A stretch of DNA of 64,000 nucleotides, from contig JAFUFK010000010.1 of NCBI GenBank assembly GCA_017469925.1, forward strand, positions 62,001 to 126,000, given 5' to 3'. Below are positions 778 through 61,941 of this stretch, in pieces. The notes under the pieces were generated by a model. It was not told the origin of the DNA and did not search any database. It worked only from the letters and a program-made list of their open reading frames with translations. Every line of letters starts with the position of its first letter. The first letter of the stretch is position 1. Source of the stretch: Bacteroidaceae bacterium (GTDB lineage: Bacteria > Bacteroidota > Bacteroidia > Bacteroidales > Bacteroidaceae). The position numbers and the translations under genes are program-made.

Positions 778-869
778 AAGTTATGTTAACCTACGGCCCT
801 AAGTTATATTAACCGATGGCGACAAATTAATATTATCTCGGCCGATAGGTTAACATAACTTCCGGCGGC
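778..869. repeat. Dyad-repeat array A: four 23-bp tandem units
   Basis: Four contiguous 23-bp units start at 778, 801, 824 and 847. Each has an AT-rich dyad core of the form AAGTTATATTAACC and a GC-rich linker containing CGGC or GGCG. The outer units form a perfect 20-bp inverted repeat (774-793 with 846-865). The array sits between the convergent ends of glnN and the PAP2-like gene. Related arrays occur at 53466 and 61816. Function is unknown. Confidence 0.85.
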
Positions 870-881
870 AAGGTTTTTTCG

Positions 882-1640
882 TCACAGCAGGGCAGTAAAG
901 GCGAGGCCCGCAGTGCGGGTCGAAACGTCGTAGGTAGGCAGGAGGAGGAGGGCCGAATCCTTCCCCTTCTTGCGTTTGTCGAGGCCGAGCCAGCGGCGCT
1001 CGAGGGGCAGTAGCCAATAGGCGACGTGGGTGGTCAGGATGCCGGATCCGGCACCGGCGAGGACGTCGTTGAGGTAGCAGCGGTCGTTATACATCTGGAG
1101 CACGCCGACGCCCGCGGCAACGCCATAGAAGGCCATGCCCCAGCCCCAGCCGCGCTCGATGCGGGTCTGCTCGGCGGCCATAAAGGCGTTGGCGGTCTTC
1201 AGGGAGGGGAAGGCGTGGCTACCGTGGCCGTCGGGACGCGGTTCGCGGACGCAGCGACGGACAACGGGCATGGTGGCATAGAGGAGGGCGTACGAGGTGG
1301 CCTTGACGAGGAGACGGTCGGTAAGGTTGTGCTTCGGTCGGGGGCCGAGAGCCATGGTGGTCACCTGCATGGAGAGGGTGGCCCACGTCTCGACGTTGGC
1401 CTTGCGATGCGTACCACGACCGCGCTGGAAGGCATCGCGGACGTCCGTCTTCCAGTCGCAAAGGCGGGGAGCGGAGACGGCGGCAGCGCCCACGGCTATC
1501 ATCGTGGCGGGCACGACGACTTGCTGCGGACGGACGCGGAATTCGCTACGGGGCGGACGGACATCAGTGGTATCAACGTATTGCGCCCTGACTTGCCATG
1601 TGCAAGCCAAGGCGCATACGATGAATAGGAATTTCCGCAT
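882..1640 (-). CDS. PAP2-superfamily protein lacking catalytic histidines
   Basis: A 252-residue protein with a signal peptide ending near AQ20 and several membrane segments. It fits the PAP2 lipid-phosphatase fold: it keeps VREPRPDG (motif 1) and the spacing of motifs 2 and 3. The expected PSGH reads PSLK (145-148), and the His of the SRx5Hx3D motif is Cys188, while Asp192 remains. Both catalytic histidines and the SR pair are therefore gone, so phosphatase activity is unlikely. Its ATG overlaps the stop of the upstream ATPase subunit K gene by one base, which suggests translational coupling. A scaffold or lipid-binding role is possible but not shown. Confidence 0.8.
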   Translation of the reverse strand: MRKFLFIVCALACTWQVRAQYVDTTDVRPPRSEFRVRPQQVVVPATMIAVGAAAVSAPRLCDWKTDVRDAFQRGRGTHRKANVETWATLSMQVTTMALGPRPKHNLTDRLLVKATSYALLYATMPVVRRCVREPRPDGHGSHAFPSLKTANAFMAAEQTRIERGWGWGMAFYGVAAGVGVLQMYNDRCYLNDVLAGAGSGILTTHVAYWLLPLERRWLGLDKRKKGKDSALLLLPTYDVSTRTAGLAFTALL

Positions 1641-2107
1641 TAGGCAGCTGCAACAGCCTGACCAGCCAGGAAGACGAGGGCTACGCTGACGATGGCGTAG
1701 AGCTCGGGGAACACGGCGAGCACCAGGATGTTACCAAACACCTTGTGACCCTGTGCCATGGCGGCGATACCATTGGCACATACCTGGCCCTGACGGATAC
1801 CAGAGAACAGGCAAGCCAGACCGCAGGCAATACCCGAACCGAGTACGGCGCAGGCCTGGATGGCGGTGATTTCGGGGGTGAGCAGGCCAAAGATGTTCTG
1901 GCAGAGGAAGAAGCCGGCGAAGCCGTACAGACCCTGCGTACCGGGCATAGCCGAGAGGGCAAGGGCGTTACCGAAAATCTTCGGGTCCTTCTTCAGGCCA
2001 CCGATGGCGGCGTTACCTGCGATTGTTACTCCATAGGCGCTGCCGATGCCCGACAGTCCTACCATGATTGCAATGCCAAGATAGGCGATAAGCAAATTTG
2101 TGTCCAT
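1640..2107 (-). CDS. ntpK: V/A-type ATPase subunit K (membrane rotor ring)
   Basis: This is the proteolipid of the rotor ring that carries ions across the inner membrane. The 155 residues form four hydrophobic helices as two hairpins, the duplicated form typical of V-type c subunits. The carboxylate is Glu135 (VFPELYAIV). Residues equivalent to the sodium ligands of Enterococcus hirae NtpK are present: Thr57-Gln58 (PGTQG), Gln106 (RQGQ) and Glu135. This suggests, but does not prove, sodium transport. It is the last canonical subunit of the operon, 40 bases after subunit I, in a gap with a short AT-rich repeat. Confidence 0.95.
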
Positions 2108-2147
2108 AATTGTATAAAAGTTTAACGGTTTAATAAATTCTTAACTC

Positions 2148-60473: not shown

Positions 60474-60481
60474 CAAAGGTA
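60474..60481 (-). promoter_or_regulatory. -7 element of the yceD operon
   Basis: TACCTTTG on the minus strand, 34 bases before the yceD ATG. Upstream is an ATTGAAAATTAAAA repeat tract. Confidence 0.6.
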
Positions 60482-60583
60482 CAATAAATAAATTGAAAAT
60501 TAAAAATTAAAAGTCAAAAAATGCGCTTTTCCATCAATATTTCCGTCGCGCAGCCCCATTTCGCCCTTAAAACGGGAGGGGGC

Positions 60584-61759
60584 TTAATACTTTTTCAGTT
60601 CGATGCGGAAGGTGGTGCCGCGTCCCAGTTCGGAGCTCTTGACGAAGATGCGGCCCCGGTGGTACTCCTCTACGATGCGCTTGGCCAGGGACAGGCCGAG
60701 GCCCCAGCCGCGACTCTTGGTGGTGAAGCCGGGCATGAAGACGTCCTTGAAGTTCTTGCTCGGGATGCCCTTGCCCGTGTCGGCGACCTCTACGGAGAAG
60801 CAGTCCTGTTCGTCGCGGGCGGTCAGGGTGATGCTGCCCTGGCCCTCCATGGCGTCGATGGCGTTCTTGCAGAGGTTCTCGACGACCCACTCGAACAGGG
60901 GGGCCGACATCTTGACGATGAGCGGGTGGTCGGGCATGCGTACGTGGAGCCGTACCTTGTTCGAGGTGCGGCGGCTGATGTACTGGACGACGTTCTCGAT
61001 GACGTCGTTCAGGTTCTCGGGCTTCGGCTCAGGCAGGGAGCCTATCTTGGAGAATCGTTCGGCGATGCGCTGCAGCCGGCGCACGTCCTTGTCCATCTCG
61101 GGCAGGAGTTCGTCGTCCGGGTAGGTCTCGCGCAGGACTTCCACCCAGGCCATGAGGCTCGAGATGGGGGTGCCGAGCTGGTGGGCGGTCTCCTTCGACA
61201 GGCCCACCCAGACCTTGTTCTGTTCGGCGCGCTTGCTGCTGAGCAGGGCGAAGATGGCGACGGCGGCGAAGATGAGCACGACGCCCAACTGGACGTAGGG
61301 GTAGTAGGCCAGGCGGCGCAGCATGAGGCTCTCGCCGAAGCAGACTTCCATAAACTCCTGCTGGCCCTGCGGCGTAGCGCTGTCGAGGTAGATGCGGATG
61401 ACGTTGCCGTCGCGCTTCATGCCCTGGGCGCGCTGTTCGAGGTAGCGCAGGGAGTCGGCGGCCGTCTTGCCGCTGACGCGCAGGTTGCGGAAGTCCTGGA
61501 CCTGGCCATCGTCGTCGAGCACCACGACGGGGATGTTCTCGTTGCCCTGCAGGACCTTCAGCACCAGGGCCATGTCGGTGTTCTCGTCGTTGTTGTTCAG
61601 CGAGCGCAGGGCCTCGGCCCAGACGCCCATGTTGGTGTGCTCCTCCTTCACCAGGTCGCGCACGAGCAGGTGGGAGACTACCAGCGACGCCACGGCAATA
61701 ACCACGGCGCTGGCCACAAGCAGGATTTTCACCTGACGGATTCTATCGGTCCATACCAT
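60584..61759 (-). CDS. Orphan sensor histidine kinase
   Basis: A 391-residue inner-membrane kinase. Two membrane helices (about residues 9-33 and 154-174) enclose a ~120-residue periplasmic sensor with no recognised ligand. The H box is KETAHQLGTPISSL (His193), the N box ENLCKNAIDAMEG and the G boxes VADTGKGIP and GWGLGLSLAKRI. No response regulator is adjacent, so the partner is unknown. Array E lies upstream of its start. Confidence 0.9.
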   Translation of the reverse strand: MVWTDRIRQVKILLVASAVVIAVASLVVSHLLVRDLVKEEHTNMGVWAEALRSLNNNDENTDMALVLKVLQGNENIPVVVLDDDGQVQDFRNLRVSGKTAADSLRYLEQRAQGMKRDGNVIRIYLDSATPQGQQEFMEVCFGESLMLRRLAYYPYVQLGVVLIFAAVAIFALLSSKRAEQNKVWVGLSKETAHQLGTPISSLMAWVEVLRETYPDDELLPEMDKDVRRLQRIAERFSKIGSLPEPKPENLNDVIENVVQYISRRTSNKVRLHVRMPDHPLIVKMSAPLFEWVVENLCKNAIDAMEGQGSITLTARDEQDCFSVEVADTGKGIPSKNFKDVFMPGFTTKSRGWGLGLSLAKRIVEEYHRGRIFVKSSELGRGTTFRIELKKY

Positions 61760-61795
61760 ACATTATATATAACGCACGCGGGCGAAAAATATTGC

Positions 61796-61941
61796 CTCCG
61801 AAAGGCCTCTTTTGCAAGTTGCGTTAACCTACGCCTGTAAGTTCACGAACCTACGCCTTTATGTTATGTTAACTGATGGGCGTAAGTTAACATAACCTTT
61901 GGCGGCAGGTTAACGCAACTTGCAAAAGAGGCCTTTCGGAG
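61796..61941. repeat. Dyad-repeat array E with perfect 35-bp terminal inverted repeats
   Basis: Units start at 61816, 61839, 61861, 61884 and 61907; lengths are 23 or 22. Cores are of the GTTAACATAAC family, linkers TACGCC or GGCGG as in array A. The ends form a perfect 35-bp inverted repeat (61796-61830 with 61907-61941). The array is between the divergent kinase and C11 protease genes. Confidence 0.92.

Follow-up and report, generated by a model that had tools for sequence, protein, structure and literature searches.

Intergenic arrays with a common pitch of 22 to 23 bp and many unrelated cores in a genus of Bacteroidaceae

A stretch of 64,000 nucleotides from a Bacteroidaceae bacterium (GenBank assembly GCA_017469925.1, contig JAFUFK010000010.1, positions 62,001 to 126,000), referred to here as the window, contains five intergenic arrays of short tandem units set at 22 or 23 bp. 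The arrays belong to three families with unrelated cores, namely GTTA (GTTANNNTAAC, family A), AACC (AACCAGTNACTGGTT, family B) and GTTC (GTTC-N10-GAAC-N4, family C). Arrays of this design recur throughout the source genome and its genus. Their period is locked, they are dispersed as blocks, and they turn over between species. The original prediction, made from the letters of the window, had described five intergenic arrays of four to six units at 22-23 bp, three of them with one core. All five are present when read directly, their unit counts (Table 1) fall within that range, and arrays 1, 4 and 5 share the GTTA..TAAC core. Thirty copies of the window simulated with a first-order Markov model had no GTTA pairs, no AACCAGTNACTGGTT units and no GTTC arrays, while the real window has 4, 4 and 4, respectively. 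From the same copies, Tandem Repeats Finder at score 50 returned two rows of period 20-24, both of period 20.

The genome searched is a 2.87-Mb draft. GTTA arrays of period 23 occupy 29 places in it, three of which lie in the window, and arrays of period 22 occupy at least 18 places for AACC (one at the end of contig C28) and at least 17 for GTTC-N10-GAAC. A genome scan had been proposed as the check on the prediction, and in all three families the arrays stand far above reversed-pattern controls (forward against reversed, 44 and 0 for GTTA, 76 and 9 for AACC, and 14 and 1 for GTTC). They are almost exclusively intergenic and consist of 2-8 units, mostly 3-5. The cores are far more numerous than three. 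Twenty 20-kb stretches of the same genome, positioned before the sequence was inspected, contain further period-22 units, including TGTGCCAC..GTGGCACA, TCAGCTGGCTGA, AAGACGCGCGTCTT and GTTATAACAATGTTATAA. Arrays with different cores also occur side by side in a single intergenic region (L145 9568-9790, L149 5647-5866, L151 1242-1429, L279 13152-13292 and L280 14851-15020).

Pitch was measured between consecutive dyads lying 15-40 bp apart. All 39 distinct pairs of GTTA...TAAC are at 23 bp, and all 20 pairs of GAACNNNNGTTC (GAAC....GTTC) are at 22 bp, as are all 19 pairs of AACCAGT.ACTGGTT, which comprise 14 distinct sequences from near-identical copies. For TGCCA..TGGCA, seven pairs are at 22 bp and two at 23 bp. 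The pairs from other genomes (164 of 164) carry no weight for pitch because they were retrieved with a 22-bp pattern. Within the 12-bp spacer of the 39 GTTA pairs, 167 of 468 bases are off consensus, and yet its length is never altered. Across 115 units from 26 of the 29 GTTA arrays (L076, L091 and window array 5 being excluded), half-site bases are 92-99% conserved and spacer bases 43-90%, a contrast that the half-site-based search partly builds in. GTTC spacers likewise vary in sequence. The GTTA family thus combines the conserved dyads, fixed helical pitch and free spacers that characterize an operator array. Dimers bound in a row and interacting with one another would also require just this, a fixed length with a drifting sequence.

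The period extends to the genus. A pooled Tandem Repeats Finder scan (score >=50) covered six genomes, that is, the window, the twenty 20-kb stretches and stretches of five other genomes of the genus. It gave 50 intergenic arrays and one coding array of period 22, with unrelated units; three of the 50 are rows from the window, and four (L276, L279, L280 and L290) lie in stretches with previously seen matches. The corresponding intergenic and coding counts were 1 and 0 at period 20, 9 and 4 at 21, 5 and 1 at 23, and 3 and 3 at 24. In a separate set of 18 genomes of the genus (343 kb), period 22 was represented by 22 intergenic arrays and no coding ones, period 21 by four and two, period 23 by one, and periods 20 and 24 by none; 13 of the 18 stretches contained at least one intergenic array with a period of 20-24. 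The claim of constant spacing with changing sequence therefore holds both genome-wide and genus-wide, and two helical turns, as originally proposed, is the obvious reading of that spacing. Ordinary unrelated minisatellites, or chance, would be a simpler explanation, and bacterial genomes do contain intergenic minisatellites; passages of one report describe such repeats of 22, 23 and 41 nt in Porphyromonas gingivalis (PMC4596501). However, this account is contradicted by the sharp peak at 22 in the six and the 18 genus genomes, which is absent from the Markov controls. Moreover, 315 kb from 22 order-level genomes, some of them short contigs, held only two intergenic arrays of period 22, along with three of period 21 (in one stretch), two of period 20 and one of period 24. 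We regard unrelated minisatellites or chance as very improbable.

Among 120 genomes, the AACC pair was found in one, the source genome itself, GTTA in four and GTTC in 11, all of the same genus. Among the matches listed, 75 of the 80 GTTC three-unit stretches come from Bacteroidales-type assemblies by title, many of them ruminant-derived, and the other five from Sulfitobacter (twice), Roseobacter, an Osedax symbiont and Bartonella. A phage origin was also considered: nine viral contigs (L412-L420) carry intergenic GTTC three-unit arrays, all with inner sequences that differ from those here, and the AACC pair had no match in viral contigs.

The AACC arrays are copied as whole blocks. An 81-bp block of four units is nearly identical at most sites and is also found within unrelated flanks, and its degenerate third unit, AAGGAGT, is kept in 13 of 14 aligned blocks. 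Elements at scattered sites reach 90-98% identity over as much as 193 bp. In some copies the likeness continues into the flanks, to a total of up to 193 bp, whereas L096 and L102 have no flank in common with the others. These features bear on a mutational generator, in which slippage or template switching, always by 22 nt, would build functionless arrays. Such a generator would account for many sequences at one period, and repeats at other multiples of 11 (11, 33, 44, 55, 66 and 88) also occur. On the other hand, unit numbers are small, degenerate units persist in place and the arrays move as whole blocks. We know of no mechanism that works in such fixed steps and judge this explanation improbable. 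The homogenising repeat generator of the original prediction is not supported, given the retained third unit and the range of 2-8 units.

Block dispersal is also what would be expected if the arrays were parasites resembling miniature inverted-repeat transposable elements (MITEs) or REPINs. The dyad rows would then be recognised by a mobilising transposase or HUH nuclease, and the pitch would be kept since only pitch-correct copies propagate. We rank rows serving a mobilising enzyme second, as possible although rather doubtful. Besides the near identity of scattered AACC elements, the four-unit GTTA elements have common arms resembling terminal inverted repeats (TIRs), and an outer repeat, AAAATCCTTACAAC and/or AAAAATGTTTACAAA, accompanies 12 of the 29 GTTA elements, a count made with no control run and, for AAAATCCTTACAAC, with a motif picked by eye. 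Additionally, presence is variable at orthologous sites, which were compared in up to four relatives with one genome per species. Upstream of rsmH, a GTTA array in the source genome corresponds to a GTTC array in G143 and to no array in G045. Upstream of etfB, GTTC-type arrays are found in the source genome and G143, with none in G045 or G127. The source genome has GTTC arrays upstream of dxs and ppdK, where the relatives have a different core (dxs, G045), a period-21 repeat (ppdK, G143) or no array (dxs, G014 and G127; ppdK, G045 and G127). Upstream of rplM, pckA and metG (four relatives each), pfkA (three) and guaA (one), the array is found only in the source genome.

Against such parasites, the many unrelated cores are not explained by a single enzyme, and no target-site duplication was established; the orthologous intergenic regions are too diverged for element edges to be placed. 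Downstream of lpxB, synteny among relatives is too variable for an empty-site comparison. RAYT-like genes do exist, and the source genome has two matches (C5:91478-91990 and C6:230409-230774), both below the curated cut-off, but no array was found in the 3 kb around each (L041 and L423). Within the genus, 75 of 121 genomes have a RAYT match, six of them above the cut-off, and seven incomplete genomes with no match at E 0.001 (G008, G011, G012, G020, G023, G028 and G032) nevertheless have period-22 arrays. RAYT-driven spread was rejected because no array adjoins either match of the source genome and arrays are present in genomes without a match. The AACC arrays nearest to note, at C5:97124 and C6:225462, are each some 5 kb away from one of the two RAYT-like matches.

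The closest known element is BrickBuilt, a MITE of P. gingivalis that, in the passages describing it, has 23-nt tandem units and is intergenic and dispersed 19 times (PMC4596501). Family A, with its 29 places, likewise forms a 23-nt intergenic repeat at multiple sites, and the imperfect units and the occurrence in Bacteroidales are also held in common; families B and C have a 22-bp period. In contrast, BrickBuilt is described there as a single sequence family of 1 to ~23 units with a leader and tail of up to ~300 nt and an IS5-like TIR, GAGACCTTTGCA / TGCAAAGGTCTC (PMC4596501), whereas the present arrays combine many unrelated cores at one pitch and mostly have 3-5 units. That TIR had no match with up to two mismatches within 200 bp of 58 elements (27 GTTA, 17 AACC and 14 GTTC), for which shuffled sequences predict 0.6, 0.35 and 0.3 matches, respectively. 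The earlier statement that no named element has this design must therefore be qualified, since BrickBuilt is close in design even though its TIR was not found. Among open-licence papers, a literature search brought up work on BrickBuilt and REP but no class of repeats that we recognised as sharing a 22-bp period.

Repetitive extragenic palindromic (REP) sequences, bacterial interspersed mosaic elements (BIMEs) and REPINs with their RAYT are, in the portions of the source that treat them, likewise small palindromic units that are intergenic, clustered and of several families (PMC3733652). The present arrays differ in their fixed two-turn pitch, in having no member beside the RAYT-like matches and in that a GTAG or CGTC tag is not the rule. 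Within 8 nt, GTAG is found at 18 and CGTC at 4 of 87 GTTA units, neither at any of 52 AACC units, and CGTC at 11 of 55 GTTC units, which have no GTAG. GTAG at GTTA (21%) and CGTC at GTTC (20%) exceed the ~4% expected; most units are nonetheless untagged.

Iteron arrays and multi-site operators, such as 22-bp iterons and the TnsB sites of Tn7, place protein sites at about 22 bp on one face of the helix. Those sites belong to one origin or transposon end, whereas the arrays described here occupy tens of dispersed sites with many cores. Single cores may resemble XerD or LexA sites, but this reading was set aside, as the likeness is not shared by the other families.

The dyads could alternatively act as RNA or single-strand hairpins, the stacked stem-loops serving as bidirectional terminators or mRNA stabilisers. 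Inner-base pairing in GTTC units is indeed somewhat above shuffles. However, covariation is absent from the GTTA arms, which pair equally well within and between elements (permutation P 0.45 and 0.53 for 15 four-unit elements, 0.87 and 0.94 for 12 five-unit elements). Moreover, an exact 22-bp pitch would not be required, the gene contexts of GTTA are mixed, and Rfam, searched over the window at gathering scores, has no match at the arrays. Hairpins are thus an unlikely explanation. For GTTA, selection on RNA hairpins was rejected on the negative covariation test, whereas in GTTC units, given the pairing noted above, it may still act. A role as terminators only was rejected because gene contexts are mixed over the families. 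Specifically, the classified loci fall in divergent, tandem and convergent gaps in the numbers 9, 8 and 7 for GTTA, 1, 5 and 6 for AACC, and 7, 3 and 2 for GTTC, compared with 36, 67 and 20 among 123 background gaps of >=100 bp. GTTC leans towards divergent gaps (7/12 vs 36/123, P 0.053 uncorrected), which speaks for the protein-row reading favoured below.

For the AACC family there is a candidate protein partner. The genome has seven genes (nine match rows) of a family with TPR, transmembrane, coiled-coil and helix-turn-helix (HTH) regions, and an AACC array lies within ~170 bp of six of them, at the 3' end in contigs C15, C27, C3 and C1 and at the 5' end in C22 and C28. The C28 array was sought on the strength of the other five and then found. 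The seventh gene (C5) has no AACC array within ~0.3 kb downstream or 0.8 kb upstream, and no family member occurs among 289 proteins of 20 unselected stretches. The six cases are not independent, since the linked genes fall into close groups, one in C15, C27 and C3 and another in C22 and C28. The paralogues are mosaics, with windows of ~75-95% identity beside others of ~20-40% (L107-L099 and L109-L421), and their HTH regions are very different, so the association could be a sign either of regulation or of recombination. Relatives sought in 2.08 Mb of other genomes gave weak matches only. The mosaic set covers L107, L111, L099, L109 and L421, and L107, L109 and L111 each have nearby a gene for a small secreted protein, the same kind in all three.

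Overall, a protein-row mechanism is the best supported, with a probability that we put somewhat short of even. Short, dispersed, nearly all intergenic REP/MITE-like elements would make up several families, with the arrays as their cores. Each core would be a helically phased row of 2-8 units with a pitch of 22 or 23 bp, and in most cases the units are inverted-repeat sites. The dyad of each family would be a putative binding site for a candidate dimeric, probably HTH, protein. A two-turn pitch would set the dimers on one helix face, where neighbours could touch and bind cooperatively. One architecture would have arisen, or been copied, with many recognition sequences, and the TPR/coiled-coil/HTH family that abuts the AACC arrays is the best candidate for their partner. 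Most likely, the rows would act like operators, modulating either the transcription of neighbours or the local structure of the DNA, and would spread through being copied.

Several observations weigh against this reading. A dyad stem exceeds shuffled units at P<0.05 in only 16 of the 50 period-22 consensus units, so the period, and not the dyad, is the invariant. The dyad units of the original prediction need refining accordingly. Of the options that it named, the DNA-binding protein array is the one favoured here. The exact AACC pitch may merely reflect recent copying, and array 5 contains a single 22-bp step, at a degenerate 10-bp core. AACC arrays lean towards convergent gaps (6/12 vs 20/123, P 0.012 uncorrected), an odd site for operators. 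No recurrent gene family was found near GTTA or GTTC arrays, with a clustering threshold that groups five of the six linked TPR-HTH genes and excludes the C1 copy. Finally, the AACC dyad is constant although the TPR-HTH paralogues have strongly divergent HTH regions, which argues against one simple operator.

Table 1. Array features of the 64-kb window (window positions).
Feature	Position	Strand	Description
Array 1, family A (GTTANNNTAAC)	780..859		4 units, period 23, third degenerate
Array 1 core starts	780, 803, 826, 849		read directly from sequence
Array 1 flanking arms CCGGAA/TTCCGG	774-865		widen element to this span
Outer repeat AAAATCCTTACAAC near array 1	688..701	+	found next to certain further family A elements too
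Array 2, family B (AACCAGTNACTGGTT)	11703..11827		6 units, period 22
Array 2 unit starts	11703, 11725, 11747, 11769, 11791, 11813		11703 and 11769 degenerate
Array 3, family C (GTTC-N10-GAAC-N4)	44481..44621		6 units in two 3-unit blocks, period 22
Array 3 unit starts	44481, 44503, 44525 / 44560, 44582, 44604		inter-block step 35 bp
Array 4, family A	53468..53547		4 units, period 23; cores at 53468, 53491, 53514, 53537
Array 4 neighbours			convergent SusD-like and ABC-ATPase genes
Array 5, family A	61818..61919		5 units, period 23; starts 61818, 61841, 61863, 61886, 61909
Array 5 neighbours			divergent histidine kinase and clostripain-like genes
Array 5 left arm CTCCGAAAGGCCTCTTTTGCAA	61796..61817	+	22 bp
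Array 5 right arm	61920..61941	-	inverted copy of left arm CTCCGAAAGGCCTCTTTTGCAA, 22 bp

The window also contains tandem repeats of heptamers (AAATTGA 13796-13827, GGTTAAC 18835-18861, CCTCTAA 19350-19379, TTAATTC 19541-19574, AATTAAG 54396-54429 and AAATTAA 60490-60520) and of octamers (12110-12155 and 59695-59765). Period 7 is the commonest period in a 400-kb sample of the source genome (score 40, 24 rows). At gathering scores, Rfam matches the window only once, at a tRNA gene (41711-41792).

Dispersed repeats are usually recognised by their sequence. What these arrays conserve is instead a length, about two helical turns, and this common length spans unrelated sequences throughout the sampled genus. 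In a bolder form of the protein-row mechanism, which we consider conceivable but on balance unlikely, the arrays would be genus-wide, self-spreading operator arrays, each family co-evolving with its own cooperative dimeric DNA-binding protein, so that the words turn over while the pitch stays locked; the TPR-HTH proteins would be one such family. If the arrays are indeed rows for bound proteins, they would constitute a layer of regulation or chromosome organisation that evolves fast and can be copied, and their DNA would be a ready bait for the protein that it binds.

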